Shown here piece after piece: positions 5,467 to 20,888 of a stretch of DNA of 21,958 bases. Under the pieces are notes generated by a model. The model made no database searches. It worked only from the letters and a program-made list of their open reading frames with translations, and was not told the DNA's origin. A program made the position numbers and the translations under genes. The first letter of the stretch is position 1. Each line of letters opens with the position of its first letter. The DNA is from a virus. The stretch is from positions 1-21,958 of IMG/VR virus record IMGVR_UViG_3300025151_000342. One strand, 5' to 3'.

Positions 5467-5997
5467 TCATTCATAGATGAAGACCAATCTTGCAGTGCCA
5501 CCGGTGAAAGCTCCAGCAGTGGTTGCTAATGTGATTGTCAAAGCTCCACAGACCAACCCTGACCATGGTGCCGGCTCGTCAATGACAACTCCGCCGGTCT
5601 TTGAACTTGCAGGAGCGGTTACTGTGAAATGAAGTCCAGTGGTAGCTCCAGCATCGGCGTTCATGTTTCCTCCTTCCGAAGTCTGGAAGTTTAGCGGTGT
5701 ATTGCTAGCTGTCCTATAGTCAAGGAATGATACAGTATCACAATAAGGATATTCGGTGCCACCTGCATCTTCAATGTCCATGGTCAGCTGTAATGTTCCG
5801 CTTGTAGCCGTCACTGATCCATTAGATGTGATTCTGCTTGGGTCAAGAACGACGCGAGATATCTTGCCATTGAGTTGGATAGTCTGAGAGACTGTAGCCG
5901 CAGCTGGCATATCTATCTCGACAAATTCCCTATTGACACGGGTTTTACTCCCATATCTGCCGTCACCGTCAAAGATTGACGTAGGATTGTCGGTCAT
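5467..5997 (-). CDS. 176-aa beta-rich virion protein (possible decoration protein)
   Basis: ATG at 5997 is preceded by GGAGGGCGGTGA and overlaps the previous stop by ATGA. The protein is rich in Thr, Ser, Gly and Ala with alternating hydrophobics (VSQTIQLNGKISRVVLDPSR; GTLQLTMDIED; LVCGALTITLATTAG) and ends GTARLVFIYE. This is an all-beta layout. The last strand resembles that of the 125-aa protein next to the capsid gene (TMRLTLLYS), so the two may share a fold. No enzyme motif, membrane segment or signal peptide is visible. Its place two genes after the major capsid protein suggests a capsid-surface or tail-tube-like role. Family not recognised. Confidence 0.75.
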   Translation of the reverse strand: MTDNPTSIFDGDGRYGSKTRVNREFVEIDMPAAATVSQTIQLNGKISRVVLDPSRITSNGSVTATSGTLQLTMDIEDAGGTEYPYCDTVSFLDYRTASNTPLNFQTSEGGNMNADAGATTGLHFTVTAPASSKTGGVVIDEPAPWSGLVCGALTITLATTAGAFTGGTARLVFIYE

Positions 5998-6551
5998 TCA
6001 CCGCCCTCCGCAAGATATTGACGGGCCTTACCTGTAAGTGATGCCTTTGTATCAGTGTTGATAGTGGCTATGCCTCTACTTGAACACCAATTCTGCATCT
6101 GCGCCCTAGTCATACCTGCGGAGAACCCTACTCCCATTAGCATTTCATCAGTTACATCGGAAGCGGCCAAGGTAGCTTCTTCTGGCTCTGCTGTGACTAC
6201 TTGAGTCTCAGGTAATATGTCCTCACTCGTGACGACTTCAGGCTCTGGTTCAGGCTCTGGCTCAGGTTCTGGCTCTGGCTCTGGCTCAGGTTCCGGTTCC
6301 GCTTCTACTACGGGTTCGGGTTCTGCGGCTGCCTCAAGAGCAGCTATTGCAGCTTTTCCTTGATCCTCTGCCTTTGTGTCAATGACTTCCCACATGGTTC
6401 CGCCATTGGCTATTGCTGGGATTATGTATTGTTCGATCCACCAATCGGGAACATCGTCGCGCTCCCTTCCTCGTCCGAAGCCATACTTCACGCCTTTTAT
6501 GGCGAATTCTGTGTATGCCCTCGCCCCCACATACTTCAAGGTCAAAGCCAT
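5994..6551 (-). CDS. 185-aa protein with Glu-Pro spacer and C-terminal SAP/LEM-like helices
   Basis: ATG at 6551 has AGGTGAG about 8 nt upstream; a GTG three codons earlier (6560) is possible. Three parts are visible. Residues 1 to ~75 are a small folded domain (LTLKYVGARAYTEFAIKGVK, then WWIEQYIIPAIANGGTMWEV). Next is a rigid spacer with about ten Glu-Pro pairs. The C-terminal ~50 residues have a SAP/LEM/HeH-like helix-extended-loop-helix feel (MTRAQMQNWCSSRGI, then ASLTGKARQYLAE). Small N-terminal domains beside phage capsid genes followed by a helix-loop-helix tail occur in capsid-associated proteins, where the tail may touch DNA or a partner. Function inferred; the EP spacer and domain layout are seen directly. 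Confidence 0.75.
   Translation of the reverse strand: MALTLKYVGARAYTEFAIKGVKYGFGRGRERDDVPDWWIEQYIIPAIANGGTMWEVIDTKAEDQGKAAIAALEAAAEPEPVVEAEPEPEPEPEPEPEPEPEPEPEVVTSEDILPETQVVTAEPEEATLAASDVTDEMLMGVGFSAGMTRAQMQNWCSSRGIATINTDTKASLTGKARQYLAEGGE
6241..6300 (-). repeat. Tandem hexamer repeat encoding Glu-Pro
   Basis: About ten copies of a 6-bp unit (GGCTCT, GGCTCA, GGTTCA, GGTTCT or GGTTCC on the plus strand) encode an EP run in frame. Third-position variation breaks the perfect repeat, but the tract could still change length by slippage in steps of two residues. Confidence 0.9.
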
Positions 6552-6560
6552 TTGGCTCAC

Positions 6561-6975: not shown

Positions 6976-8142
6976 TCAGGCACTCAAGTCCCTTATCTTC
7001 CCGTGGGCTCCGTAGAACAGTTGCCATAGGTCTCCCATTGTGTGGAACATTCCCATCTGGCCAAGCCTGTTGATTCCGAATGGATCGCCAGTCTCTATAC
7101 CAGACTCGTGGTAAAGTGTTGGTTTTGCTGTGCAGAAGTACATGTAGTCAGTGTCCATGTAGTAAAGTCGGCTTAGTCCACCGCCGTCTTCGATTACATC
7201 CTTAGAAGGAATTAGTGGTACGCCGTTGTAGGTAGCTACTATGAAACCGGCTTCCATACCGGGTACACCTGTTACTCCGTTGACTCCGGGTACTACTCTC
7301 TTCATCTCTGTGAACCTCTGCTGAGGTTGTAGGAGCTGCTGGATCTTCTCCAGAGTGTCGTAGCCTGTTAGGATAACCTTTGGCTGTCCACCTCTCTCCC
7401 AGATGCTTCGGAACATACCGTCAAGGATGTTGAGAGTTAGTGCTCTCTCGGTCCCTGAGCTTCCTGCATCGACGTTTGCATCATACCACTGTTGCGAGCT
7501 TCCATCGTCTGCTCTGTCGATGTTGTACTGCTTGTGGTCTCCAGCGGAAATGTCGCTGAAGCTTGTAGTCTCGATGTTTGTAGCAGAGATACACCTGTCG
7601 ATTGACTCGAAGTTGTTCAGTGTTGTCTCTCTGTTACCCACGTCGTCAAGAAGCATTTTGTTGATCATCTCAGCGTGATGCTTAGCCATCTCCATCTTCA
7701 TGACAGCTCTTGCATCTCCAAGACCATCATCCTTGTCAGCAAGGAACATTGCAGTCTCGCTCAGATCAAATGTGTGAGCTACAGTTCTTGGCTTATCGCT
7801 AACAGCAGCGAAGGTAGGCTTGCTGGTGTCAGGTAGTGTTCCGTTCTCAGGTAGTCCGCCACTGATGGTATCTGATGGCTTTGCAGTGACGACCCTCCAT
7901 CCTGACTTCTCCCATGGCTTCTTTGGTAGTATTGAGAAGGCGTTGAACTCTTGATTGAGCTGTGACCATACCTTCCTTCCAAAGATAGCTTGGTAAGTTC
8001 CTGTGGTCGAGCTCATTAGTGGAGAGTCTGCCTTTAGCAAGTCAGTGCCACTGTACGCCCATGCGTTCTGTCCCGCACCTGCACCGTAGTACATGCGCTC
8101 CATGTCTTCTATTGTTCTGATGTATCCTCTTGATCCACTCAT
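6976..8142 (-). CDS. Major capsid protein, HK97 fold
   Basis: A 388-aa protein with a strong SD (CGAGGTGAA) 5 to 6 nt before ATG 8142. The order protease/scaffold - this gene - small beta-rich gene, and the length, are those of HK97-type shell proteins. Visible features: an early segment YQAIFGRKVWSQLNQEFNAF followed by LPKKPWEKSGWRV; a central long helix region (DARAVMKMEMAKHHAEMINKM, quoted in part); the peripheral part GGQPKVILTGYDTLEKIQQL; and late strands VPLIPSKDV and YYMDTDYMYF, typical of these proteins. It has no obvious N-terminal delta domain, consistent with a separate scaffold supplied by the protease fusion. Expected to form the icosahedral shell that is filled by TerL. Family from pattern and order; confidence is high. 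Confidence 0.9.
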   Translation of the reverse strand: MSGSRGYIRTIEDMERMYYGAGAGQNAWAYSGTDLLKADSPLMSSTTGTYQAIFGRKVWSQLNQEFNAFSILPKKPWEKSGWRVVTAKPSDTISGGLPENGTLPDTSKPTFAAVSDKPRTVAHTFDLSETAMFLADKDDGLGDARAVMKMEMAKHHAEMINKMLLDDVGNRETTLNNFESIDRCISATNIETTSFSDISAGDHKQYNIDRADDGSSQQWYDANVDAGSSGTERALTLNILDGMFRSIWERGGQPKVILTGYDTLEKIQQLLQPQQRFTEMKRVVPGVNGVTGVPGMEAGFIVATYNGVPLIPSKDVIEDGGGLSRLYYMDTDYMYFCTAKPTLYHESGIETGDPFGINRLGQMGMFHTMGDLWQLFYGAHGKIRDLSA

Positions 8143-8172
8143 TTTTTCACCTCGTGTTTTAACTCAAGACGA

Positions 8173-9540
8173 TTACTCGCCTCGGACGGCCCTCCTTGCC
8201 AGTTCTTCGACGGCCCTCCAGCCTTCTAGGTCATTGCCCATTGCGGCAAATTCCTCATGGGAAGGGACACGAATGTCAGTTGTTGGGGTTGCATCGGATT
8301 TTGCGATATCTGTTGCGCCAGCACGTAGGGTCTGAATTTCAGCACTTAGAGCTGCGATTTGTGAGGAGTAGTCCTGAGACTTTCTCATCTCTTCAGCCCT
8401 TGCTGTTTCAGCAGAGTATCTCTCTTCCCACTGTGCCTTGACCAGAGTCTTGAGCGCTTCCTCGTCTTTCATAGTTGCATATGCCCTGTAGCCTCTCTCT
8501 AGGCCTTCTGGCGTAACATCTCCAGCCTTGATGACATAGTTGTTACCTGATGCCTCGTTGTAAGCCATGTTGTCTACACCGGGCTGCTTGATGACGTACT
8601 GATTGCCACCGGGAGCTGGTAGAGCTGGTTTTGCGGTCTCGGTTGCGTCCTCGCCGCTGCCGATTTCATCGCCCTGTCCTCTGTGAGAGTAGCCACCGTC
8701 TCCGTATCCGGGCAGATATGCCTTCTCAAGACCGAAGTGCCCACGTAGTTTGTCAAGATCAATTCCCTGCTCGTGTGCAAACTTCTCAAGAGTATCGATG
8801 TAAGCCACTGCGGAGTCTTCGGATTTCTGTGGGTCCTCATCCTCTTTCATCTCTTTCATCTCCTTTTCCTCGGAGTACATCTTGTCTTCTTTCTTTCCTT
8901 TGGCGACATCTTCATCCATGTGCTTCAACACACGGGAGAGTCCGTCCCTTATTTCGTTCAATGCTTCGCTTTCTGTCATTTTTTCCACTTCCGTTTCATC
9001 CATTTTCAAAATTGTATATCGAGCTTCGGGGTTAATCCCTTTCTTGCACAGAGTAACCTCGTGTAGCTCTAGCTCGGTAATCTCACGGTGGTTGCCATGC
9101 TCAGGGGTATGCTTGCTTACCCTAAACAGTGCCTGTCCACCTATGGAGAAAGCTCGGAGGTCTCCGTCACGGATTTGCTTCTGCACCTCTCTCGCTTTCT
9201 GTATGTCGCTGCGTATCTTGCATACGACGAATAGGCCGTGGTCATCCACTTCGGATTTCCACAATCGGCCTTGTGAATCAGTGTGGTCGGCTACAACCTC
9301 TCCAACCTGAATACCGCTATGAGCTAGCTGTACGTTTCTGAACGCTTTGTTGCCCATGAATTTATCAAATGCCTTACCTAGAGCATCTGAAGGAATCCTG
9401 TCACCCTGCTTGTCCACCATATCCACACTGGCGTATCCTGCGATATAGAGATCCCCATTCTTCGTTTCCGACTTCATGATGAAATCAGAACCTACCGCAC
9501 TCCATCTTAGGGAGGGTTGTAGTGTAGCCTCTGCGGACAT
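8173..9540 (-). CDS. Prohead maturation protease fused to a scaffold-like C-terminus
   Basis: A 455-aa protein when started at ATG 9540. A TTG at 9561 would add 7 residues, but the TATA-like box 27 nt upstream supports the ATG. Residues ~20-185 match the HK97/U35 prohead protease pattern: an opening strand YIAGYASVDMVDKQGDRI, His74 in QLAHSGIQVGEVV, Ser132 in DLRAFSIGGQALF, and the closing LELHEVTLCKKGINPEAR (acidic residue 161). His and Ser are the expected catalytic pair. After residue ~190 come acidic and Lys-rich helices (MKEMKEDED), a Gly/Pro linker, two GNxYVIK segments (312-318, 332-338) and a coiled-coil-like tail, as in a scaffold. The capsid gene follows. The protease would mature the shell and degrade the scaffold part. 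Confidence 0.9.
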   Translation of the reverse strand: MSAEATLQPSLRWSAVGSDFIMKSETKNGDLYIAGYASVDMVDKQGDRIPSDALGKAFDKFMGNKAFRNVQLAHSGIQVGEVVADHTDSQGRLWKSEVDDHGLFVVCKIRSDIQKAREVQKQIRDGDLRAFSIGGQALFRVSKHTPEHGNHREITELELHEVTLCKKGINPEARYTILKMDETEVEKMTESEALNEIRDGLSRVLKHMDEDVAKGKKEDKMYSEEKEMKEMKEDEDPQKSEDSAVAYIDTLEKFAHEQGIDLDKLRGHFGLEKAYLPGYGDGGYSHRGQGDEIGSGEDATETAKPALPAPGGNQYVIKQPGVDNMAYNEASGNNYVIKAGDVTPEGLERGYRAYATMKDEEALKTLVKAQWEERYSAETARAEEMRKSQDYSSQIAALSAEIQTLRAGATDIAKSDATPTTDIRVPSHEEFAAMGNDLEGWRAVEELARRAVRGE

Positions 9541-9558
9541 TGTAGGGGCATCGTTATT

Positions 9559-9570
9559 CAATCGTATATG
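9559..9570 (-). promoter_or_regulatory. TATA-like box upstream of the protease gene
   Basis: The minus strand reads CATATACGATTG. ATACGATTG begins exactly 27 nt before ATG 9540, the spacing of an archaeal TATA box to a leaderless start. No SD lies between them. The same 9-mer is at 14954-14962, and a one-base variant lies 27 nt before ATG 5415. Confidence 0.5.
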
Positions 9571-9583
9571 AATGATAGGATGT

Positions 9584-9600
9584 TAGTCCTGACAGGACTA
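9584..9600. promoter_or_regulatory. Perfect inverted repeat between the 1132-aa gene and the protease gene
   Basis: TAGTCCTGACAGGACTA is a 7-bp perfect inverted repeat with a 3-nt centre. It begins right at the TGA stop of the 1132-aa gene (9601-9603), about 14 bp upstream of the TATA-like box. There is no T-run next to it, so a plain terminator is less likely. It may be an operator for a dimeric regulator, or a transcript-end hairpin. Confidence 0.45.
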
Positions 9601-12600
9601 TCAGGTTATAGAATCCGTGCGAACGCTAGGCTGAGGCTCTGTTGCCGATTTTTTTTTCTTGGGTGGAACACGCATAATCGCTTCTTCTTCGCTAATTTCA
9701 ATTTCGGGTTTTTCTATATCTTCAGATATGATATTCAACTGTGCTATATCCTCTTCTTCCCTTTCGTCGTCCTTACCTTGCCTTGGGTCTCCGAAAGTTG
9801 TATTGATTTCTTCGTTGATCTCTGTTGGGCCCATAGGTGCTGTGATATCTGCTTGCATACCTGACCACGCACCTCCATCGGCAGAAGCTGCATTCATTCT
9901 AGGATACTTGAATTTCTTAATCGGAGTATCTACAATGTCGTCATCAATAGCTTCATTGAGTGTGAATTTACCATCCTCGGTTCTTTCTATGCCATATTCT
10001 CCCCCGAACCTGAGAAGATGGTCATGTTTCAAACCTTTCACCTTTTCACACAACTCATCAGAGGTCAAAGATTCATCACCGACTTCTATGGCCGAAACCG
10101 CCCGTCTCATCATATGCTCTATATCGTCACTTTCTTCGTCATTGACAGCAGGTGCTTTTTTGAGTCTCCTCTTTTTCTTTTTTCGAGTAACAGAATGAAC
10201 TGGGTTATATGTCCCTGCATCTGTAGACATTACGGTGCCTGACCCTCCAGAGGCGGGAGCTGCGCCTCCGCCCCCCGCTTCCTTTAGAAGAAATGCCACA
10301 GGGGGTATCCATAGGTCTTGTTGTGATATCGCTTGTTTTACCAAATATGATAGTCCCTCGTAACCGTCAATATATGTCCCTTCATCATCCATACCCAAAT
10401 CAACTTTTACGACGGATACTATTTCTGGATACTCCAAATATAGTTGAGACCCGTTTATTGTTATCTCAGGAAGAGGAGGATATACTTTTGATTTTGATAT
10501 TTCATCATTAGCGAATAAAATCCATTTTGGGTGTAGCTCTTTGTCTTTGATAAATGTCGAAGATGCATCTCTAACTAGAAATTCACCCTTGTCAAAAGCG
10601 GCTATGGCTTTAACCAGCCCATCGTGATCCGAAAACGAACAATTCGACGGAGCAGGAAAGTGCACATTATCTGTAGAATGGTACAATGTCTTTAGAACAT
10701 TAATTCTATCCTCTAAAGGTTCAAAAGATAAATCGGTCCCCTTATGGACTAACAAATCCACCACACTCAATTTGTCGCCGTCAAGGTAAGCGTCCAAAGT
10801 AAAATTGCCTTTCATCTCCTTGAGGTCTTTACTAATTCCCTTCGGCATGCTTGGCTCTAATCTCTTCCCCTCCTTTTTGATTAGCTTACGATCTCCTTCT
10901 GGTTTCTTCTGAACTACCCAGCTTCCACTAAATCCCTTCATCGTTTCTAAATCATCCAAGTCCTTGACAATATGTGCGGGCTTAATGAGGTCTTTACCAA
11001 ACACTCCAGTCAACTCATAATCATCGGCTTTGTGTAAATCGGTCAATAAAGCTGGAAATCCTCTTGCCCCTCTCTCCAATAGATTGATTTCTTTCTGTTT
11101 GCTTCTTATTGCTTTGATATGGAAAGCCGGGTCTACGGCCCTAATGTGTTCCTCGTGTGCCGTTCTTTGCATGATGTTGAAGGGTTGTTCAGTGACATTA
11201 AACTCTATGTCCCCTGTGTCCGAGTCATATTTCCAAGTCAAAGTTGCTGGCATTAGATGCCCCCAAGCATCTGTATTGCCTGAGTTGAAGATGGGAGGCA
11301 CAACGGCTCTAGCGGTCGGGGAGAGTGGCTCAAAGTACCCATTACTAGCGATTAATTTCATAGTGGTTGTATCTGGCAGAGGCATTTCTGTGAATTTTGC
11401 TGTATCTCCGTTTCTCATTAAACGGTAGTTTACAGCAGCTAGAAGCTGTTGAATGTTACCTCTTGCGATAGTATTTCCTTCAACATTCATAAATTGTTTA
11501 GTATCGTCTTCTGATTTACTTCTAAGAACCTCAATTCCAAATTTTTCCATGACTTCATTGGCCATTCTTTTTGCTTCAAATGTCATCGTATTACTTGCGT
11601 ACCTATTCAGTTGATTGTGAAGATCGTGAAACTCGGGGTTTGAATTGGGATGTTCTTCCCCAATGAACGGTGCCAACGCAGCACCGTGCTCACCAACATT
11701 CATCATAGCCCTTCCAAATGGACTCATTGTGTATGCGGTGTGTGGTATCATCATAACTGAGCCTTGACCCTCTATTTCCGATGGATGTAAATGATGATGA
11801 TGTGCTGACCCCCCACTCCAATTAGCCCTCTTTCTCTCAAAATCTAAATTCATCTGTGAATCGGACGAAAGAATGTCTGCGTATTGTTGGCCGTTAGGCG
11901 AATTAGATGCGCCGGGATAATGTGACCCTGCAATCATATGTTTGCCTATAATTGGAAGTGCGTCCATTAACAGGTTACTTAGCCAAGAGCCTGTAAATAT
12001 CTTTGAGTAAGATTGCATGAAAACTTGTTTGAGTGAGTTAAGGTCTCTGCCAACACCTCCCCAATATTGGTATGGCTCCCACCAATGATAATTGTGGTTC
12101 TTCTCCCCCGCTTCAGTCCACGGAGAGCTGTGATAGCGGTCGGGAGAGTTGGGCATATCAGGTTGTGTAGGGCCGGATTTGTCAGCTGGTCTTGACCACC
12201 ATGCTTTGAGAGGAGTGGCTCTGTCTCTCCAATTTCTAAGTAGTCTATCAAATGTTATGCCACCTTTCTCTTGCATCTTATTGATCACGGTTCTAGCTTC
12301 GGGTGAATTCGGTTCTGAAGACATTGATAATTCGGAAAGCAACCCCATTATGACCTCCCTTTGCTCGCCAGTTTGATATTCAAGACCAAATAAGTATGAT
12401 AGCAAGCCATAATCACCCGACAACTCCTCCTTCTTTTGTTGCATATAGCCCTCATCGGTTAGCTCACGGTATCTGTTTCTATCAACCGAGTATAGATCAA
12501 ACATGCTTTCAGTGGGGTCGCCATAATTGTCTAAAACGGCCATCAAATCAGGCCTTATTCTTCTCTCCATTTCTCTGTGAGTCTTCATTGGTTCGCCTAT

Positions 12601-12999
12601 GAATTTCAAAACTATATCCACATACGCAGGGTCTCCATGAGCACCTCCATGAAGAAGGGGGCAGCTGTTGGACTCAAAATCAAATGGTTGATGCTTTCCG
12701 AACTTATTGTCCATTTCTGCCTCTGGCCAGTCACCGGAATAACTCGTGGATATTTTCGTATGCCCCGCGAGAAAGGCTTGCATGTCCGATGGCATAACCA
12801 TCTTGGAAGGCGGCATTGGTTTATCTAAATCCCTCATGGAATAAGCAGGGGGGTCGATTGCCACGGCTACAGTGGCAGTGTCAAAACTTGTAGCTTCGAC
12901 CTCTTCTAGCTTAGATAGGTATGATTCAAGATCATAATCTTGACCAGTGAGAGACGATAGCAGAACGTCTGTTCTCTGTCTGATTATTTCTTCTGACAT
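9601..12999 (-). CDS. 1132-aa capsid-operon protein with a degenerate DNA-ligase/nucleotidyltransferase domain
   Basis: ATG at 12999 follows GAGGTGAGTA. Residues 1 to ~640 are not recognised; they are Trp/Met/Asn-rich with a His cluster at 400-405 (HHHHLH). Residues ~655-845 resemble the adenylation domain of ATP-dependent ligases. Motif I is KPEGDR (K699-R704), in WVVQKK context. The motif III region is DAYLDGDKLSVVDLL (736-750), followed by LEDRINVL. A motif IV-like GEFLVRD lies at 805-811 and a motif V-like W826 (PKWILF). The spacing fits the family, but motif IV lacks the EG order and motif V lacks its Lys pair, so activity is doubtful. The C-terminus has RKKKKRRLKK (939-948) then acidic low-complexity sequence and KKKK near the end. 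Sits between small head genes and the protease. A virion, scaffold or ejected protein is possible. Confidence 0.85.
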   Translation of the reverse strand: MSEEIIRQRTDVLLSSLTGQDYDLESYLSKLEEVEATSFDTATVAVAIDPPAYSMRDLDKPMPPSKMVMPSDMQAFLAGHTKISTSYSGDWPEAEMDNKFGKHQPFDFESNSCPLLHGGAHGDPAYVDIVLKFIGEPMKTHREMERRIRPDLMAVLDNYGDPTESMFDLYSVDRNRYRELTDEGYMQQKKEELSGDYGLLSYLFGLEYQTGEQREVIMGLLSELSMSSEPNSPEARTVINKMQEKGGITFDRLLRNWRDRATPLKAWWSRPADKSGPTQPDMPNSPDRYHSSPWTEAGEKNHNYHWWEPYQYWGGVGRDLNSLKQVFMQSYSKIFTGSWLSNLLMDALPIIGKHMIAGSHYPGASNSPNGQQYADILSSDSQMNLDFERKRANWSGGSAHHHHLHPSEIEGQGSVMMIPHTAYTMSPFGRAMMNVGEHGAALAPFIGEEHPNSNPEFHDLHNQLNRYASNTMTFEAKRMANEVMEKFGIEVLRSKSEDDTKQFMNVEGNTIARGNIQQLLAAVNYRLMRNGDTAKFTEMPLPDTTTMKLIASNGYFEPLSPTARAVVPPIFNSGNTDAWGHLMPATLTWKYDSDTGDIEFNVTEQPFNIMQRTAHEEHIRAVDPAFHIKAIRSKQKEINLLERGARGFPALLTDLHKADDYELTGVFGKDLIKPAHIVKDLDDLETMKGFSGSWVVQKKPEGDRKLIKKEGKRLEPSMPKGISKDLKEMKGNFTLDAYLDGDKLSVVDLLVHKGTDLSFEPLEDRINVLKTLYHSTDNVHFPAPSNCSFSDHDGLVKAIAAFDKGEFLVRDASSTFIKDKELHPKWILFANDEISKSKVYPPLPEITINGSQLYLEYPEIVSVVKVDLGMDDEGTYIDGYEGLSYLVKQAISQQDLWIPPVAFLLKEAGGGGAAPASGGSGTVMSTDAGTYNPVHSVTRKKKKRRLKKAPAVNDEESDDIEHMMRRAVSAIEVGDESLTSDELCEKVKGLKHDHLLRFGGEYGIERTEDGKFTLNEAIDDDIVDTPIKKFKYPRMNAASADGGAWSGMQADITAPMGPTEINEEINTTFGDPRQGKDDEREEEDIAQLNIISEDIEKPEIEISEEEAIMRVPPKKKKSATEPQPSVRTDSIT
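10465..11037 (-). other. Ligase-like (nucleotidyltransferase) domain inside the 1132-aa protein
   Basis: This stretch encodes residues ~655-845. The lead-in KPAHIVKDLDDLETM corresponds to the conserved strand/helix before motif I in ATP ligases. The putative adenylated lysine is K699; the acidic residue of motif I is E701 instead of the common D. Motif III has D742 where Glu is usual. Motif IV is G805-E806 rather than E-G, and motif V reads WILFA rather than WxKxK. Fold similarity is probable by motif order and spacing; catalysis is uncertain. Confidence 0.6.
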
Positions 13000-13008
13000 T
13001 TACTCACC

Positions 13009-13725
13009 TCACAGGCGAGCAAAGACTTCTTCCGTAAGGCTCGCAATTTCTTCAATTATTCCCAAACTGCCGGGATATGCCTTTCTCAGAGATGCAAGAG
13101 CGTCTTCGGCACTATCTAAGTTATCTGTGACTCCACCAGCATAATTCAGATGCATATGAAGAGATGAAGCATTCGTGTCGTACCCAGTCTGAGCTACAGA
13201 TGGCATCTTAGCCACTTCACTGACAATGGATTTACTCGGACCGTCATTCATAGCCGGTAGTCTGTGATTAGTCGAATACACAGTGGCTCTAGTTCCAGAT
13301 GGTTGTTCTAGTAATTGAGGAACGCCATTCTCAACGGTGGTTTCTTGCTCGTACTTGACAATAATGCCCTTTTCTCTTAAAAACGCAGTTGTTGCGTCTT
13401 CTTTCTTCACCTTCTTGTCGCCCTTCGTAGCTCCAGCTATCTTGTCTGCGAATGTGATTTTATCATGAGGTGGTGCCAAAGCTGCGAAGTCCTTGTTTCT
13501 ACCTTTTGCCTTTGGAAGCTTAGGTGGCTTCCCCATGCCTCTGTCTGACTTGTACCCGTCTTCAGATTTTTTGGTGTCTTTGCGACAAGATTCACAACCC
13601 TCACAAGGGTCTGCCTTGCAGTGCATACCATACTTTGCTTTCACAACGTCCTCAAGTTGTTTAACTATGGTTAGCAATTGTCCCTCTGGCGTTTCTTTCA
13701 TTGGATTGACGTATCTTAGACTCAT
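13009..13725 (-). CDS. 238-aa protein with an N-terminal Cys cluster
   Basis: ATG at 13725 (MSLRYVNPMKETPEG) is preferred: it overlaps the previous TGA by ATGA and has GGAGG about 11 nt upstream. A longer start at 13755 would overlap by 34 nt. An early helix (QLLTIVKQLEDVVKAKYG) is followed by a compact metal-knuckle-like cluster, CKADPCEGCESCRKD. Next come a Lys/Gly-rich linker and a C-terminal helical part (SAEDALASLRKAYPGSL, then IIEEIASLTEEVFARL). Not recognised. The cluster may bind zinc or an iron-sulfur centre; spacing C-x4-C-x2-C-x2-C is seen directly. It precedes the large ligase-like protein, separated by 9 bp. Confidence 0.75.
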   Translation of the reverse strand: MSLRYVNPMKETPEGQLLTIVKQLEDVVKAKYGMHCKADPCEGCESCRKDTKKSEDGYKSDRGMGKPPKLPKAKGRNKDFAALAPPHDKITFADKIAGATKGDKKVKKEDATTAFLREKGIIVKYEQETTVENGVPQLLEQPSGTRATVYSTNHRLPAMNDGPSKSIVSEVAKMPSVAQTGYDTNASSLHMHLNYAGGVTDNLDSAEDALASLRKAYPGSLGIIEEIASLTEEVFARL

Positions 13726-14054
13726 ACTCTTGTAGCCTCCTCTGCATCGATCCACTCTTGTAATTCGTCATATCTGGACTTGGACTTTTGAAAGACCTCT
13801 CCCGTACCCTCAAATGGGCCACCGAAAGAAGTCGCATCATCCACTCCTGCTCTATTCAATGGATCGAATGTCTCATCGGCATGAGGAGTGGTCATCTTCA
13901 TCCACCCCGCCTTTCTCATCATAGTCTCAGGGTCAGACACCGCTTTTCTAAGTTCATAATTCTCGCCCTCGACGAAAGCCAATCTCTCATTGAGAGTCTT
14001 TAGCTCGGAAACTATTTGCTTCATTATCTCAAGCTCTTGATTTTCATCGGACAT
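13722..14054 (-). CDS. 110-aa coiled-coil protein
   Basis: Starts at ATG 14054, which shares one base with the upstream TGA (TGATG); a GTG one codon earlier (14057) is possible. The first ~40 residues form a strong heptad-rich helix (ELEIMKQIVSELKTLNERLA, then FVEGENYELRKAV), a likely dimer or trimer coiled coil. The rest is polar, with PLNRAGVDDATSFGGPFEG and a second helix RYDELQEWIDAEEATRV at the end. It has no Cys and no membrane segment. Family not recognised. Among head genes, small coiled-coil proteins often act in scaffolding or as partners of larger head proteins; that role is only inferred. Confidence 0.75.
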   Translation of the reverse strand: MSDENQELEIMKQIVSELKTLNERLAFVEGENYELRKAVSDPETMMRKAGWMKMTTPHADETFDPLNRAGVDDATSFGGPFEGTGEVFQKSKSRYDELQEWIDAEEATRV

Positions 14055-14953: not shown

Positions 14954-14963
14954 CAATCGTATT
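14954..14963 (-). promoter_or_regulatory. TATA-like box AATACGATTG
   Basis: The minus strand reads AATACGATTGTC, lying in the gap after the TGA of the 97-aa gene and 33 nt upstream of ATG 14929. It shares ATACGATTG exactly with the protease promoter candidate and AATA(C/G)GATTGTC with the one at 5434-5446. Confidence 0.4.
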
Positions 14964-15256
14964 CAAGACTTCTGCTTAGGGTCGCCCCTCTCACCTACTA
15001 ATTTCAACCTTCTAAGAGTGTTGTCAACTAGCTTCATAGCTTTGGGCTTATCCGTGTTTTTATCGCCTTTGGAGCTTGTAGGAGAACCCTCATTTCGTAT
15101 AACTCGCTCATTTCTCTGAGTATGACCCTGTCTACGCAGGGGCCGGAGTTGAGAGCCTTTGACCCCTACCATGGCAGACCTATCAGGGACACTTCCATGA
15201 ATCGGGTCTCTTACATCTCTTTTCACAAGCTCCCAAGCCAAGTCGAAGGCACTCAT
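14963..15256 (-). CDS. 97-aa basic protein with N-terminal AFDLAWELVKRD helix
   Basis: ATG at 15256 overlaps the previous stop by ATGA and has GGGTGAC just upstream. Residues 3-14 (AFDLAWELVKRD) form a short amphipathic helix that recurs, with changes, in three other small genes of this window. The remainder is strongly basic and probably disordered (GSQLRPLRRQGHTQRNERV; KLVDNTLRRLKLVGERG), with many Arg, Lys, Ser and Gly. No known family was recognised. A charged tail next to a conserved short helix fits a small DNA-binding or capsid-packaged protein in which the helix serves as a docking tag. That is inference. Confidence 0.75.
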   Translation of the reverse strand: MSAFDLAWELVKRDVRDPIHGSVPDRSAMVGVKGSQLRPLRRQGHTQRNERVIRNEGSPTSSKGDKNTDKPKAMKLVDNTLRRLKLVGERGDPKQKS

Positions 15257-15621
15257 CTGTCACCCTCCAATTTCTTTTGAGCTTCTCTGATTAGCTCTTT
15301 TGATTTTCCTCGTGCTTCCTCTAATTTAGGATGGAATTTCAAAATAACCTTTCTACCATCCTTTTTGATTGATTTGCCGTCAACAATAACCTCGACGGGG
15401 AATACCTCAAACTTGTCATACCAATATGCTACCTCATATCCGCCGTCTTTCAACAACTCAACAAGGACTCCTCTCTTGTAGTCCTTATCCTCTGCTTGAA
15501 GAACTTTCATTTCACCTCTTGGTAGGGTGAAATCAACGCCTTTCATTTTCTTGAACTTACCACCCTTTGACTTAGCGTGATCCGCCTTTACAACGTCCCA
15601 TGCTTGGTCAAATAAGGTCAT
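15253..15621 (-). CDS. 122-aa protein with N-terminal LFDQAWDVVKAD helix and a small beta domain
   Basis: ATG at 15621 overlaps the previous TAA as TAATG and has GGTGG about 9 nt upstream; an upstream in-frame start at 15633 would overlap more. Residues 3-14 (LFDQAWDVVKAD) match the shared helix motif. After a Lys/Gly linker (HAKSKGGKFKKMKG) there is a beta-rich domain (DFTLPRGEMKVLQ; YEVAYWYDKFEVFPVEVIV) and a C-terminal charged helix (HPKLEEARGKSKELIREAQK). Not recognised as a known family. The folded domain after the tag suggests that the helix delivers different cargos to a common partner. Confidence 0.75.
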   Translation of the reverse strand: MTLFDQAWDVVKADHAKSKGGKFKKMKGVDFTLPRGEMKVLQAEDKDYKRGVLVELLKDGGYEVAYWYDKFEVFPVEVIVDGKSIKKDGRKVILKFHPKLEEARGKSKELIREAQKKLEGDR

Positions 15622-16208
15622 TAGCAATTCCACCTTCTACGAGCTGCCTTGCCTCGTGGCCCTTTCCAACTTCTGCTCCGGGCACAGAATGACTTTCTTC
15701 TAGCCGCTCTCTTGCCTTTTGGATTCTTTTCAGTCACCGGAGCTTTGAGCTTTGACCCAGTAGCTCTGTTGTATTTGGCCCTACCTTTGGCGGTCAGGCC
15801 ACCTCCTTCCTTGACAGATTGCTTCTCACCCCTGCCTACAGACAGGCTTGGGCCAGCTTTGAGTAAAACAGCTTTGACCAGAGATTGACAGGTATCGCAC
15901 TCACAAACGGATTTAACCATAGTTGGCTTTCCTCCTACACCCTGTGGCTTACTTCTTTTTCTCTTTGTAGCAGCTTTCTTTTCCTTAGCACTCATTGATC
16001 CTGCTGTTTTCGGAGTCTTAGAGCTGACCTTCTTTGACGGACGGCATTTCGGATAGCCCCTGCTCGACTTGTCAGCATCATCCCTGCCGCACGGCGGGTG
16101 TTTGCCATCCTTGTCTTTGCGTGAGACATCCACCCACTTCTCCTTGAACCAGTCTCGGAGGTCTTTTCTGAGCTCGTCTTCGCCCCATTGTCTGAACTGG
16201 ACATTCAT
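15621..16208 (-). CDS. 195-aa basic Cys-rich phage protein with CGR..PKCRP and RRKSFCAR modules
   Basis: ATG at 16208 overlaps the previous TGA by ATGA. Residues 1 to ~57 give WFKEKWVDVSRKDKDGKHPP then CGRDDADKSSRGYPKCRPS, a viral module with paired Cys. A Lys-rich linker follows, then a small CECDTCQ knuckle (102-108). Residues 135-195 carry GGGLTAKGRAKYNRATGSKL then APVTEKNPKGKRAARRKSF, CAR, and a final WNC. This second module (GL..GR..YN..TG..LK.PVT..RRKSFCAR) is a widespread small phage/virus domain, which I place near DUF6321 from memory. Its function is not established. Having both modules in one chain, with an extra CxC..C insert, is notable. Very basic; possibly DNA-binding and zinc-binding. 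Confidence 0.85.
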   Translation of the reverse strand: MNVQFRQWGEDELRKDLRDWFKEKWVDVSRKDKDGKHPPCGRDDADKSSRGYPKCRPSKKVSSKTPKTAGSMSAKEKKAATKRKRSKPQGVGGKPTMVKSVCECDTCQSLVKAVLLKAGPSLSVGRGEKQSVKEGGGLTAKGRAKYNRATGSKLKAPVTEKNPKGKRAARRKSFCARSRSWKGPRGKAARRRWNC

Positions 16209-16594
16209 TTCTTCCCCTTCTTTGACTTCTTCTTCCAGCCCCCGCCTTTGGACTTATACCACTTAGATGCCCAAGCGTTAGCATAAGCTGAGGGATATAC
16301 ATCGAATTTAGAACGAGCCTTTGACTTGGCCTGTGACCATAGGCTTGGATTGGTCGGGGCGTTGTCGCCTTTCGCTATGCCCCATGCAAACTCAAAAGCG
16401 TCCGAGCTTGCGTTTTTTTGCTGAAACTTGTCAGAAAAACCTTTGTCTCCTGTTTCTGCTTTAGGTCTGGGGAGGTAATCTTCAGGATTTTTTGGCTTCT
16501 CATCGGGCCTTGGATTTCTCATATCATCAGGAATTTTCTTTCCTGATTTTTTGTCTGGCTTATACGGCCCGTAGTCGTCTGCCATGTCACTCAT
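16205..16594 (-). CDS. 129-aa YPSAYA-family basic protein
   Basis: ATG at 16594 lies in the end of the portal gene (8-nt overlap); ATG 16585 is also possible, and a GTG at 16597 is less likely. The first ~55 residues are Pro/Lys/Asp-rich and disordered. Then DAFEFAWGIAKGD (the shared helix motif) leads into LWSQAKSKARSKFD and VYPSAYANAWASKWYKSKGG, and a tail WKKKSKKGKK. The YPSAYAN.WA.KWYK..GG block is a well-known small domain of marine phages and large viruses with no established function (family known to me by pattern). It is extremely basic at the C-terminus. In this operon it follows the portal and precedes another basic, Cys-rich protein, so a nucleoid or capsid-interior role is conceivable. 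Confidence 0.85.
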   Translation of the reverse strand: MSDMADDYGPYKPDKKSGKKIPDDMRNPRPDEKPKNPEDYLPRPKAETGDKGFSDKFQQKNASSDAFEFAWGIAKGDNAPTNPSLWSQAKSKARSKFDVYPSAYANAWASKWYKSKGGGWKKKSKKGKK

Positions 16595-18113
16595 CACCCG
16601 GCCAATCGTTTTTGTCTATTTCGTCTGACTTTTGGACGGGAGCACCCCCGCCCTGTTGAGCTGCTGCTTCAGCTGCTGCTTGTTCAGCCTGCATCTCCTC
16701 TGGCGATGGCTCTGCGAAGTCAAACTTGAGGTAAGCGTCATCTATGTCGTCCCTGAGCTTGGCCTTGTATCCTGCCTGCTTCATCTGCATCATGTTGCGG
16801 ATAGCCATCTCGTCTCTCCTCATCTGCATGATTTCATCTTCTTCCTCATGAGGTGTCAGAGATATCTTCCACTCATCTATCCCGAAAGCTTCCATTAATG
16901 CAGGGAAGACAAGCCTATCATAAACGGACTGTGAATATGAAACAGACCTGTTGCTGACTACGATCTGCATACCTTCGTTATTCAATCCGCCTCCTGTCAC
17001 GTCATTCATAAATACGTTAGAAACACCATAGAAAGCAGAGATTCGTTGCCTTATGTCGTCCTTTATGGGGATATACTGTAGCTCTTCCAATGTATCCATC
17101 ATCCTAACATACTCAAGGCCACCGCGTCCTGATTCTGTTTCAACCCCTATGGTCGGTATGTAATTCGGGTCTCTCTCAAGATGTTCCTGAATGTTACGTG
17201 CGGTTCGCTCTACGGTCTCCATATTGGATGACTTGATTACCATAACTCCTCTTGGCATTCTCTTTTTCTGATATGCCGAATAAACATAGTTATCCATGGC
17301 GATAAGAGTATTGACCTGCCTCCACATGGTAGCTACAGGACTTCGTCCATACAGCTTGGAAGGAGACCACTTGCTGATGTGTATGACCTCGCCTTCAGTA
17401 TATACTTGTCCAGAGCCAACACCGGCTAAATTCATGTAATGAATTGGAACCACTCTCATACCGGTAACTGGGCACTTTGCCTCTGAATCGGATGTCCTGA
17501 AAGACCGGTCAACTAAGCTAGTGTACTGAGACCCCCCGCGAACACCCCTTTTGTCGGACACTATTCTCATGAATATAGGATCAGCTCTTGTTATCTCTTT
17601 CACTCTGTAAAAGGCGGGCTTTCTGGTTTTAGGGTCTACAAAGTATTCCTTAGTGACTATGATATATGCATCGTCTACTATGTTCAAGTCCATCTCTATT
17701 TCCTTTAGAACGTCAATAAATGTCTGTCCCATACTGTTTTTTGTGGTGAACACTGAGTTTGCATATTCCAGTTGTGACCGATCTGCCTTGCGTACTTCTC
17801 CACCGTCTTCAGGGTCAGTCTCATACTCCTGATTATATTCTTTATCGGAAGTCACGCCTTTCACCACAAATTTAGGCTTCCAGCCCCAACCCTTCCTGAA
17901 CGTCTCTACTGTGAGGTGATTTAGTATGGAACGAAGCACCATGCACTCATATGCAGCCGCGTATAATGCCGGTATCGTAATTCCCTGTAAAAGAGGCGGT
18001 TCTTGTACGCCGGACGTGAACAAAGGCATGGTTGGAGTAGGGGTCGTGTGTCTCTCCATGTCCATTCCAACGGCAGAGAACAGACGGTCCATTCTTTGTT
18101 TGTCCAATGCCAT
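16587..18113 (-). CDS. Portal protein
   Basis: A 508-aa protein starting at ATG 18113, sharing a base with the previous stop (TGATG). The pattern is that of phage portals: N-terminal GITIPALYAAAYECMVLRSI, then a wing region (FIDVLKEIEMDLNIVDDAYI), then VIHISKWSPSKLYGRSPVAT, MWRQVNTLIAMDNYVYSAYQKK and MPRGVMVI. Next come the stem/clip area, IPIKDDIRQRISAFYGVSNV followed by FMNDVTGGGLNNEGMQI, and the C-terminal crown, rich in Glu, Gln and Ala. The last ~40 residues (AEQAAAEAAAQQGGG and PVQKSDEIDKNDW) are disordered. The dodecameric ring forms the DNA channel at one capsid vertex and docks TerL. Immediate context (TerL two genes upstream) confirms this. Confidence 0.92.
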   Translation of the reverse strand: MALDKQRMDRLFSAVGMDMERHTTPTPTMPLFTSGVQEPPLLQGITIPALYAAAYECMVLRSILNHLTVETFRKGWGWKPKFVVKGVTSDKEYNQEYETDPEDGGEVRKADRSQLEYANSVFTTKNSMGQTFIDVLKEIEMDLNIVDDAYIIVTKEYFVDPKTRKPAFYRVKEITRADPIFMRIVSDKRGVRGGSQYTSLVDRSFRTSDSEAKCPVTGMRVVPIHYMNLAGVGSGQVYTEGEVIHISKWSPSKLYGRSPVATMWRQVNTLIAMDNYVYSAYQKKRMPRGVMVIKSSNMETVERTARNIQEHLERDPNYIPTIGVETESGRGGLEYVRMMDTLEELQYIPIKDDIRQRISAFYGVSNVFMNDVTGGGLNNEGMQIVVSNRSVSYSQSVYDRLVFPALMEAFGIDEWKISLTPHEEEDEIMQMRRDEMAIRNMMQMKQAGYKAKLRDDIDDAYLKFDFAEPSPEEMQAEQAAAEAAAQQGGGAPVQKSDEIDKNDWPGDE

Positions 18114-19480
18114 CAGAGCACACTCTCCCTCAATTTATCAAATGCGTCCACGCCTATATTCTTAGACTTTAAGAATGCGACTTGTTCTTTCTTTTTTAGA
18201 GATTCATAAGTCAAAACTGTCATGGCGTCATCATCTCCGTCCAACGCCCTCTTTAACAGAGATATGTCTGTTTTTGGTTCATCAATAAATGAGTATGAAA
18301 GGTCGAACGCTTTTCTTATTCCTTCTTCACCATTTATACATAGTCCAGAGCTAGCGGCCTTAACAACATCAATGCCGAGCTCATGATTCAACGCCGTTGC
18401 ATACCATGGAGCAGTAGGGGCTGAGAAATTGAGTTCCAAACGTGGATTATAACGACTATCATACTTCACATCTGCATTGTTTTCAATCAAACCGGCTATA
18501 AACCTACCAGCGTCCTTGAGGATCACATCTCTCCGTTTAACATCATAGAACAATCCCCTGCCCACAGACTTACTCACCTCTCCCACGGATATTATGTCAA
18601 ATAGGAAGCCGTGCGATTTGATTAAAGAGGATATTTCGGCAGGGCTAGCAGCCACTCCATTGAACTTGAGAGTCTGCGCGTTCAATGCACCTCTGTCCAA
18701 AAGAAGGTCCGCACACTGTTTGAGTATGCTTCTCTCTCTCATTGAGAGCCTTATGTCTGCATCAATAACTTCTCTCCAACTCTCGTATGATTTAGTCTGA
18801 GATGCAACGTCCTTAGCGTCCGACCACATTTTAACAAATCTTCTAAATGGTATGCCAAGTCTGTCCGAGTATCGATTTAGGTTATCATAGTCTACGTCCG
18901 TGAGTGGTAAGGTCTTTACTAAATCGGGTGAGACACCGGGAAACGATGCAAGAATCGCCTGTTTCTCCTGTACTAATAATGGGTACAATGCATCTAATGC
19001 GGTCATTTCATTTTTGAGAATAAGGAGAGATGCCATTTCTGATCCTGTCATACCAAAGTTGTTTACAAACCAATTCTTGTCAATTGATAGTTTTATCTCG
19101 TTTGGGTCTTGAAGTAATCCTGTTTTACTTGGAGCGTTTACCTCGGTCCCTGCTTGGTCCGTTTCTGGACTATCACTTTCGGGATTATCCATACCACGGA
19201 CTCCAACACCCTGCCCCTGCTCAGTTTTTTGTTGCGTTTTCTTATCGGTCTCAGCTCTTGCAGATGCCTCTTGTTCAGCCGTTTGAAGCTCTTGAGTAGC
19301 AGTTTCTACTTCTCTTTCCTTGGCCGATAGTTTATTCTTCGCGGCCTCTATCATAGCATCAGCCACCTTGCCTCCAGCATATCCAGCAACAGCAGCAGCC
19401 GCAGGATTCTTTCTAATGTCGAGTGCATCACTTAAGCTCTCGACGCCTGTTATACCATCAATATACCGCCTCTCAAGCAT
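18113..19480 (-). CDS. Unrecognised 455-aa protein between TerL and portal
   Basis: ATG at 19480 is preferred (8-nt overlap with TerL, GGGGTGGG upstream) over one 13 codons earlier. Residues ~24-50 are an Ala/Gly-rich segment (NPAAAAVAGYAGGKVADAMI), followed by a coiled-coil-like stretch (KEREVETATQELQTAEQEA) and a Ser/Thr/Asp/Pro-rich linker. The remaining ~320 residues look like a folded globular helical domain (SLLILKNEMTALDALYPLLV; SWREVIDADIRLSMRERSIL; LFYDVKRRDVILKDAGRFIA). No catalytic motif stands out. The Ala/Gly segment could enter a membrane, but its charge is not ideal. It sits where some phages keep a head-assembly chaperone or ejected protein. Function unknown. Confidence 0.75.
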   Translation of the reverse strand: MLERRYIDGITGVESLSDALDIRKNPAAAAVAGYAGGKVADAMIEAAKNKLSAKEREVETATQELQTAEQEASARAETDKKTQQKTEQGQGVGVRGMDNPESDSPETDQAGTEVNAPSKTGLLQDPNEIKLSIDKNWFVNNFGMTGSEMASLLILKNEMTALDALYPLLVQEKQAILASFPGVSPDLVKTLPLTDVDYDNLNRYSDRLGIPFRRFVKMWSDAKDVASQTKSYESWREVIDADIRLSMRERSILKQCADLLLDRGALNAQTLKFNGVAASPAEISSLIKSHGFLFDIISVGEVSKSVGRGLFYDVKRRDVILKDAGRFIAGLIENNADVKYDSRYNPRLELNFSAPTAPWYATALNHELGIDVVKAASSGLCINGEEGIRKAFDLSYSFIDEPKTDISLLKRALDGDDDAMTVLTYESLKKKEQVAFLKSKNIGVDAFDKLRESVL

Positions 19481-20888
19481 CGGCCCACCCCAATCTGTTA
19501 CGCCATGTCGCCCCGTCAAGGATCACAATGTTCTCTCTGTATTCCTTTGTGGCTTGCACTGCAAGTGCTAGAGCTATGACCATGTCATCGTGAGCACCCA
19601 GACTTTCCATCTTGCCATTCTCTAACATCGTGAAATACGATAGCTCGGTGAGAAGGGCATTCATATGCCTTCTAGTAGCTCCCTCATCTTTGTATGGAAT
19701 CAATAAGTGCCTTTGCTCAAAGTGTAGTTGTAAGGTGTGTATGAGTGCTTCCTTCTTCATTCTACTCATATTGAAGGGTTTGATAGGTAAATCACTAATT
19801 TCTTGTAAGACTTGATTGAATGCCATGGCAAAGTTATTCGTTTCAAGCTCTATAATTACCGGATTGAACCTAGCATTGAGCTCAATTATTTTTTCAATTT
19901 GTTGATTGAAGTCCATGTTCTTTTCGTGATGTGTGTGGACAACACGCTTGTGTCTGTTCTCGTCCATGCCAATTACCATCATACAAGTATAATCAGCTCT
20001 ACGGTCTGCACTGATAGCTGGGTCCCAACCTATGTAATAATTCAGACTTTCATCTGGGTCGGGATAATACGATAATGAGAGTGTATCATCTTTGACCCTG
20101 TCTAAAACCTCTTCAGGGAATAAGCTAGACTCACTAGCTATTGGTTTACACAGGTACTCTCTGGTAAAAGCAATCGATGTCATTTCGCCCTTCCTAGCAT
20201 TCAATGCTTCCAAATTCCATCTCTCTGGCCACAATGGTTCTCCGGTAGCCTCATTGATCGCAGGATACTCCCCAACTGCATACCCATCAAGACTCTTTAG
20301 CTCAGAATAGAGGTCGGTGTATGAGAATGGGGTACCTACTATGCAAAGCTGTGCAGTGTGGTGAAGAACAGGTAGAAGAGCTGTATAGAACCATGTGGCT
20401 ATAGCTTTGAGCTGGGTCTGAGCTTCGCTTGACAGTATATCGTCAAGAACCACTATGTCAGGGTGAGCACCACGAACAGCCTTACCGACAGACATAGCTC
20501 TGATCGATGACTTGTTAGTCATCTTGAATAGCTGCTTTGCCCAACCTCTCTTCGGCTTCAGATGAGCCAGAGCTGGAGTTGTCATGATGAGTTCATCCAT
20601 CTTGGCCATGTGGTCTATGGATTGATGCTGACTGTGGCTGAAGAAGAGAACCTCTGTATTGGGAGTGTATGCCATTCTCCACAACAGGTAGCACCTGAAG
20701 AAGACCGATTTGCCGTGGTCACGACTGGCTATGACGCATATCTTGCTGTTGTTCTGTGCCATCTCATACCATTCTTTGTGAAAGTCTGCTAATTGAAAGC
20801 CGCATATATCCTCGAAAAAGAACCTGAAATCACGCCTGCCCATGTCGAAATCGACTTTGCTGGTAAGCTTCTGGACTGCTTCACTCAT
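19473..20888 (-). CDS. terL: Terminase large subunit (TerL)
   Basis: A 471-aa packaging motor with both expected domains. ATPase: Walker A variant ASRDHGKS (54-61), Walker B DIVVLDD (144-150), coupling motif VGTPF (184-188). RNase H-like nuclease: GWDPAIS with Asp289, IELETNN with Glu348/350, and GAHDDMVIALALA with Asp434-Asp435. These residues are the metal ligands in characterised TerLs. The length is in the usual 400-600 range, and the first ~35 residues are charged. ATG at 20888 has GGGGTGG upstream and overlaps the previous gene by 8 nt. TerL cuts concatemeric DNA and pumps it through the portal, which is encoded two genes downstream. Catalytic residues appear intact. Confidence 0.95.
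   Translation of the reverse strand: MSEAVQKLTSKVDFDMGRRDFRFFFEDICGFQLADFHKEWYEMAQNNSKICVIASRDHGKSVFFRCYLLWRMAYTPNTEVLFFSHSQHQSIDHMAKMDELIMTTPALAHLKPKRGWAKQLFKMTNKSSIRAMSVGKAVRGAHPDIVVLDDILSSEAQTQLKAIATWFYTALLPVLHHTAQLCIVGTPFSYTDLYSELKSLDGYAVGEYPAINEATGEPLWPERWNLEALNARKGEMTSIAFTREYLCKPIASESSLFPEEVLDRVKDDTLSLSYYPDPDESLNYYIGWDPAISADRRADYTCMMVIGMDENRHKRVVHTHHEKNMDFNQQIEKIIELNARFNPVIIELETNNFAMAFNQVLQEISDLPIKPFNMSRMKKEALIHTLQLHFEQRHLLIPYKDEGATRRHMNALLTELSYFTMLENGKMESLGAHDDMVIALALAVQATKEYRENIVILDGATWRNRLGWADA

Follow-up and report, generated by a model that had tools for sequence, protein, structure and literature searches.

A 1132-amino acid (aa) protein encoded in the head operon of a virus contains a DNA-ligase nucleotidyltransferase (NTase) domain, which spans approximately residues 662-840. 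We hold with high confidence that this domain is a pseudo-ligase, and the account that best explains the observations as a whole is probably that it has been kept as a binding module of the head. It would offer a clear, testable case of an enzyme fold that an entire virus group has taken over for a head component without catalytic function.

The head operon and the 1132-aa protein

The window analysed here is the complete 21,958-bp virus record IMGVR_UViG_3300025151_000342. Its head operon runs in the order terminase large subunit, portal, small open reading frames (ORFs), a 248-aa ORF, the 1132-aa ORF, S78 prohead protease and SU10-like major capsid protein (MCP), with more genes beyond (Table 1). 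An earlier note on this DNA had placed the gene between small head ORFs and the prohead protease, and that location is confirmed, with the MCP following the S78 protease. Relatives of the 1132-aa protein were found in viral contigs, and their alignment spans the whole protein. The order of portal, 248-aa ORF homologue, 1132-aa protein gene, protease and MCP is kept in 72 distinct relatives wherever the contig reaches.

By a scan of genome contigs, one relative was located in a Poseidoniales single-cell genome (SAG AG-422-I20), on a contig of 106 kb; besides this locus, the scan returned one weak Cytophagales stretch. The window MCP is 33-35% identical to the MCPs of haloarchaeal Druskaviridae, with 33.5% identity to that of HVTV-1, and the Druskaviridae are described in the literature as related to magroviruses of marine group II archaea. 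Because of the Poseidoniales relative, the Druskaviridae-like MCP and this reported kinship, we read the window as deriving from a magrovirus-type virus of Poseidoniales (MGII) archaea, which are very common in the ocean.

Table 1. Positions in the window of the head-operon genes and of the segments of the 1132-aa protein
Feature	Position	Strand	Basis or remark
Terminase large subunit	19473..20888	-	phrog_38, 6e-74
Portal protein	16587..18113	-	PF04860, 8.1e-14; phrog_18178, 2.3e-56
248-aa ORF, always immediately upstream of the ligase-like gene	13009..13755	-	Synteny
1132-aa head-operon protein with ligase-like domain	9601..12999	-	ORF, viral-contig relatives, synteny
Residues 1-640, mostly helical, with a beta section at 539-611	11080..12999	-	AF2 secondary structure; no known family
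Residues 643-661, predicted disordered linker, candidate prohead-protease site	11017..11073	-	pLDDT <50
Residues 662-840, ligase-like NTase domain	10480..11016	-	Profiles, model, fold comparison
Motif I equivalent, K699-P-E-G-D-R704	10888..10905	-	Relatives' alignment
Motif III equivalent, D736-A-Y-L, D736 invariant	10783..10794	-	Relatives' alignment
Motif IIIa (F-D-L/V-L) equivalent, D748-L-L750, invariant	10750..10758	-	Within TIGR02779 and PF01068 matches
Motif IV-V equivalents, GEFLVRD..S.F.K....H..W, residues 805-826	10522..10587	-	Canonical Lys lost
Residues 845-905, short beta region (845-881) and helices; possible reduced OB-fold, uncertain	10285..10467	-	Model secondary structure
Residues 908-957, Gly-rich disordered linker	10129..10278	-	pLDDT <50
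Residues 958-1132, C-terminal part: a small unit of helices, then a disordered tail in which short motifs are conserved, and a beta hairpin at the end	9604..10128	-	
S78 prohead protease, extended at its C-terminus; K421-S422 (~8296-8301) invariant	8173..9561	-	PF04586, 8.9e-12
SU10-like MCP; invariant K37-[A/S]-D at ~8026-8034	6976..8142	-	PF17236, 3.5e-10; phrog_24667, 8.2e-52

The full-length AlphaFold2 (AF2) model of the 1132-aa protein has a pLDDT of 74. The stretch that first drew attention, residues 655-845, corresponds to window positions 11037-10465 on the minus strand, and the ligase-like domain within it is the sole recognised domain of the protein; the N-terminal 640 residues gave no NCBIfam match when five N-terminal regions were searched.

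Other ORFs of the window also carry distinctive segments. Three small head-operon proteins (14963-15256, 15253-15633 and 16205-16597, all on the minus strand) share the pattern F-[DE]-x-A-W-x-[LVI]-[VA]-K-x-D, in the forms FDLAWELVKRD, FDQAWDVVKAD and FEFAWGIAKGD, which may represent a targeting or processing signal. The 248-aa ORF contains a Cys cluster, C..DPC.GC..C, that is possibly metal-binding and is conserved in part of the relatives. Downstream of the MCP gene, the minus-strand ORF at 5994-6560 encodes a protein with a central (EP)n tract, and a long, repetitive, Ser/Thr-rich protein of fibre- or adhesin-like character (3-2735, minus strand), with repeat units of the form TNTQL[ST]TE.VQDI.G.MF.SNTET, runs off the window.

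Evidence for the ligase fold

The relationship to DNA ligases emerges from the family. By single-sequence search, the whole 1132-aa protein gave no Pfam or PHROG match and nothing relevant among PDB sequences, the best matches there pairing its His-rich segment HHHHLHP with expression tags; the window domain alone reached PF01068 only marginally (E 0.2). Among 54 non-redundant members used for profile searches, PF01068 was matched by 33 (best E 6.7e-4) and TIGR02779 NHEJ_ligase_lig, the LigD ligase domain, by 49 (best E 6.9e-6), while PF21974, the m3G-cap-binding domain of snurportin-1, was matched by seven (best 0.0021). Four reversed domain sequences, run as a control, gave zero NCBIfam family matches.

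An AlphaFold2 model of the domain, computed from a 54-row alignment (window 10255-11067), reached a pLDDT of 83 and a pTM of 0.76. Foldseek ranked archaeal, mycobacterial and human DNA ligases at the top, with E values of 1.5e-8 (archaeal) and up, at TM-scores that, normalised by query length, were only ~0.3-0.5. By VIA, the model aligned with human Lig1 at Z 17.0 (166 residues, rmsd 2.7 Å) and with the P. furiosus ligase at Z 16.5 (169 residues, rmsd 2.5), and Z was about 15-17 to many DNA ligases. Some of the ligase structural alignments reach model residue 257, that is, past the NTase domain and into the region of residues 845-905. The Foldseek comparison and the AlphaFold model that the earlier note had suggested as checks thus predict an NTase fold with DNA ligases ranked first, and the recruitment of such a fold into a head-operon protein, as the note proposed, is supported by the profile matches, the fold and the synteny in 72 relatives. 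That the resemblance to ligases arose by chance, as the empty whole-protein searches against Pfam and the PDB might suggest, is refuted by the family-wide profile matches, the clean controls and the fold matches, and we regard it as next to impossible.

Among predicted structures, A0A516LT18 in BFVD, an 827-aa viral protein, was by far the best structural match (E 4.3e-14) and may be a deposited relative. Further searches added little: a phage-collection search with the whole protein gave nothing useful, tblastn of distant family members against phages gave nothing, a profile search of PDB sequences returned chance matches only, and PADLOC and PHROG scans of the domain produced scattered matches only. 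With hhalign, no significant similarity was seen between the family and six to seven Poseidoniia ligases, which were represented by shallow templates.

Loss of catalytic motifs and the published magrovirus ligase

The domain shares with the NTase domains of ATP-dependent DNA ligases (PF01068; TIGR02779; archaeal ligases and human Lig1/3/4) a common fold and the motif order I-III-IIIa-IV-V. It differs from them in that the catalytic residues are lost, no clear full OB domain is present, and the domain is embedded in a 1132-aa head-operon protein. The motif residues that had been reported for the window are all in place, with KPEGDR at 699-704, DAYLDGDK from 736, LEDRINVL from 762, GEFLVRD at 805-811 and W826. 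Motif I had been described as near-intact; this holds in the window, which keeps K699, G702 and R704, but not across the family. Over 73 relatives, position 699 carries lysine 49 times, methionine 21 times, arginine twice and glutamine once, so that the lysine is lost in 24, and the Asp position of motif I is never Asp (0 of 73); G702 is invariant, and R704 is R in 56 and H in 17. In the predicted structure, K699 directly follows the motif I strand, as in ligases.

The motif III Glu is absent from all 73 sequences, with Y, V, F or T in its place, and the motif IV Lys is Arg in every one; a motif IV Glu occurs in seven of the 73, at a place where the alignment is locally uncertain. Of the two motif V lysines, the first is present in one sequence and the second in none. 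Counted over six catalytic positions, 20 members keep none, 49 keep one and four keep two, the maximum. A different set of residues is invariant in the same 73 sequences, comprising Q697, P700, G702, D736, D748, L749, L750, H752, K753, D756, D764, R765, R810, D811, S814, F816, K818, H823 and W826. The state of residue 699 has changed at least five times on a tree of the N-terminal region, with four of the changes forced by well-supported branches, and the dN/dS of the domain lies between 0.017 and 0.073 in the 13 close pairs with estimable values, alike in K and M lineages.

Because the catalytic residues are lost family-wide, yet strong purifying selection persists, a pseudoenzyme, which the earlier note had offered as one alternative, is strongly favoured. 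As judged from the sequences, the family pattern matches a repurposed pseudoenzyme rather than a gene in decay or a working ligase. The domain has lost the residues for lysine adenylation and strand joining. Another suggestion of the earlier note, a virion-carried nick-sealing activity, finds no support; DNA-end binding, which it also raised, is a possible role.

The same counts weigh on the reading of the domain as an active ATP-dependent DNA ligase, serving replication or repair and lying in the head operon through an accident of gene order. In its favour, the window retains three motif I residues, and surveys, reviews and ICTV profiles count an ATP-dependent DNA ligase among the magrovirus replication proteins (PMC10768690, PMC12999244, PMC10160649). 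Against it, all 73 relatives lack the Asp of motif I, the Glu of motif III and the Lys of motif IV, the motif V lysines are essentially absent, K699 itself is lost in 24 of the 73, and the domain is embedded in an 1132-aa protein whose gene has a fixed place between that of the portal and that of the protease. We consider this reading very improbable.

How, then, is the published ligase to be understood? In the group A magrovirus contig_156409 (Philosof 2017, as relayed in PMC7318539), an annotated ATP-dependent DNA ligase gene adjoins the prohead protease gene. Searches of 15 related contigs, each 73-108 kb long, found zero ATP-ligases above the PF01068 cut-off; the weak PF01068 matches all fall within open frames of the size of the 1132-aa protein, and TIGR02779 matches 13 of the 15 contigs, with a single match per contig that lies in an open frame of 1113-1185 aa. 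RNA-ligase and NAD-ligase models returned nothing from these contigs. A divergent true ligase could have escaped detection, since PF00136 detects PolB in only four of the 15 contigs and the contigs may be incomplete. With no second ligase found in the 15 contigs, the published magrovirus "ATP-dependent DNA ligase" (ICTV Aoguangviridae, Apasviridae), which in a group A magrovirus is the label of a gene beside the prohead protease gene, is very probably this same gene and hence the pseudo-ligase described here. The literature treats it as an active replication enzyme, whereas we find a degenerate domain of a head-module protein. The homology has therefore been annotated before, as that of an active ligase; neither loss of catalytic residues nor a head-protein setting is mentioned in the passages of the magrovirus literature that were consulted.

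Magroviruses are reported to rank with the most abundant viruses in the plankton of the surface ocean (PMC10160649). If their sole ligase-like gene is a degenerate head-protein domain, the published picture of a near-complete, virus-encoded replication machinery needs correction, and a host ligase would be needed. In the host's class, a PF01068 ligase was found in only 18 of 60 genomes, and a shorter type of 422-463 aa is common; one ligase of this shorter type has the variant motif I region KHNG.

Possible roles in the head

We favour a model in which the pseudo-ligase acts within the head. The 1132-aa protein would be produced with the procapsid and probably packed inside it, a head location that we argue from gene order. 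The NTase fold would, again probably, be retained as a non-catalytic module that binds some ligand. That many of the new invariant residues lie in the motif III, IIIa and IV-V segments suggests a retained or remodelled ligand site. The cap-binding domain of snurportin-1 offers a comparison, as a ligase/capping-enzyme-like NTase fold that binds its ligand without catalysis. The likeness extends to the PF21974 profile matches noted above (7 of 54) and to the presence of a chain of the CRM1 export complex 3nby in the Foldseek list; snurportin-1 differs in being a eukaryotic nuclear import adaptor. In T4, RNA ligase 1 (gp63) combines a ligase fold with a part in assembling the virion, namely tail-fibre attachment; it differs in being an active RNA ligase that acts on tail fibres and is encoded outside the head operon.

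Candidate ligands of the pseudo-ligase module include DNA (as ends, nicks or packaged duplex), a nucleotide, and a protein of the capsid or the host. For a ligase fold that would lie inside a DNA-filled head, DNA suggests itself first, and we name it, tentatively, as the likeliest of these.

The prohead protease might further cut the disordered linker after K657 and so separate the module from the N-terminal 640 residues as the head matures, a step that we put forward as a possibility somewhat short of even. The linker reads K657-[S/A]658-[D/E]659-[D/E]660-Y661, with K657 and S/A658 each found in all 73 sequences, and no other K-[S/A] pair of the 1132-aa protein is invariant. In the N-arm of the MCP, K37-[A/S]-D is invariant, and the HK97 protease cleaves its capsid protein after K103. 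The proposal draws on these three points together, namely the invariant pair in a disordered linker, its counterpart in the MCP and HK97-type cleavage after Lys. Reading the pair as a cleavage site is weakened by invariant K-[SA] pairs that occur also in folded regions of the protease, the portal and the MCP. The motif K-[SAG]-[DE] showed no clear enrichment across the head proteins overall, so that the protease-site idea depends on conservation and disorder only.

A model for such processing is found in DarA of phage P1, a non-capsid protein of the head interior that the prohead protease trims at the N-terminus and that is ejected with the DNA (PMC12810830). DarA is an unrelated protein, and a ligase fold is not mentioned for it in the portion of that source consulted. 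Taken to its full extent, our model would make the dead ligase domain a fixed virion component, freed at K657, residing on the packaged DNA or its end and possibly entering the archaeal cell with the DNA; we regard this complete chain of events as unlikely.

Two other accounts of the domain deserve weight, each of which we judge distinctly less probable than a binding module and about equally so. The protein could be a purely structural assembly or scaffold protein, in which the ligase fold serves as no more than an inert spacer or a protein-protein interface that binds neither nucleic acid nor nucleotide. The core head-operon position, the strong constraint over the whole protein and the disappearance of the catalytic pocket residues are all consistent with such a role. 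Against it stand the many new invariant residues in segments that correspond to nucleotide-pocket motifs (D736, D748-L750, H752, K753, R810, D811, K818, H823 and W826).

The protein could instead be a head-packaged, injected effector, or part of a "polyvalent" protein, whose pseudo-ligase binds host or viral nucleic acid, a defence nucleotide or a protein on entry. Polyvalent and MuF-fused effectors have been described in phage heads (PMC5512222), the ejection of P1 DarA fits the same reading, and the position of our gene near portal, protease and MCP is that of the capsid-operon polyvalent proteins. The syntenic slot of HVTV-1, flanked by the MuF-like gene and the protease, encodes gp115, which has a length of 1313 aa, carries zeta-toxin kinase and ADP-ribosyltransferase domains and resembles the polyvalent proteins packaged in phage capsids. 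The slot can therefore hold large nucleotide-domain proteins, and the injected-effector reading stays alive. On the other side, the near-constant architecture and very low dN/dS of the magrovirus protein resemble a structural role more than an arms race, and no homology of its sequence to that of gp115 was detected; by hhalign, the family showed no relationship to HVTV-1 gp113, gp114 or gp115, nor to a Methanofastidiosa virus head protein. The magrovirus protein resembles gp115, and the polyvalent proteins of phage capsid operons (Iyer et al. 2017), as a large multidomain protein with a nucleotide-related domain in the same head-operon slot, and differs from gp115 in the domains themselves. 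HVTV-1 gp115 (7545-11486) also contains a repeated "DWVSDPTEQAPNRW"-like segment.
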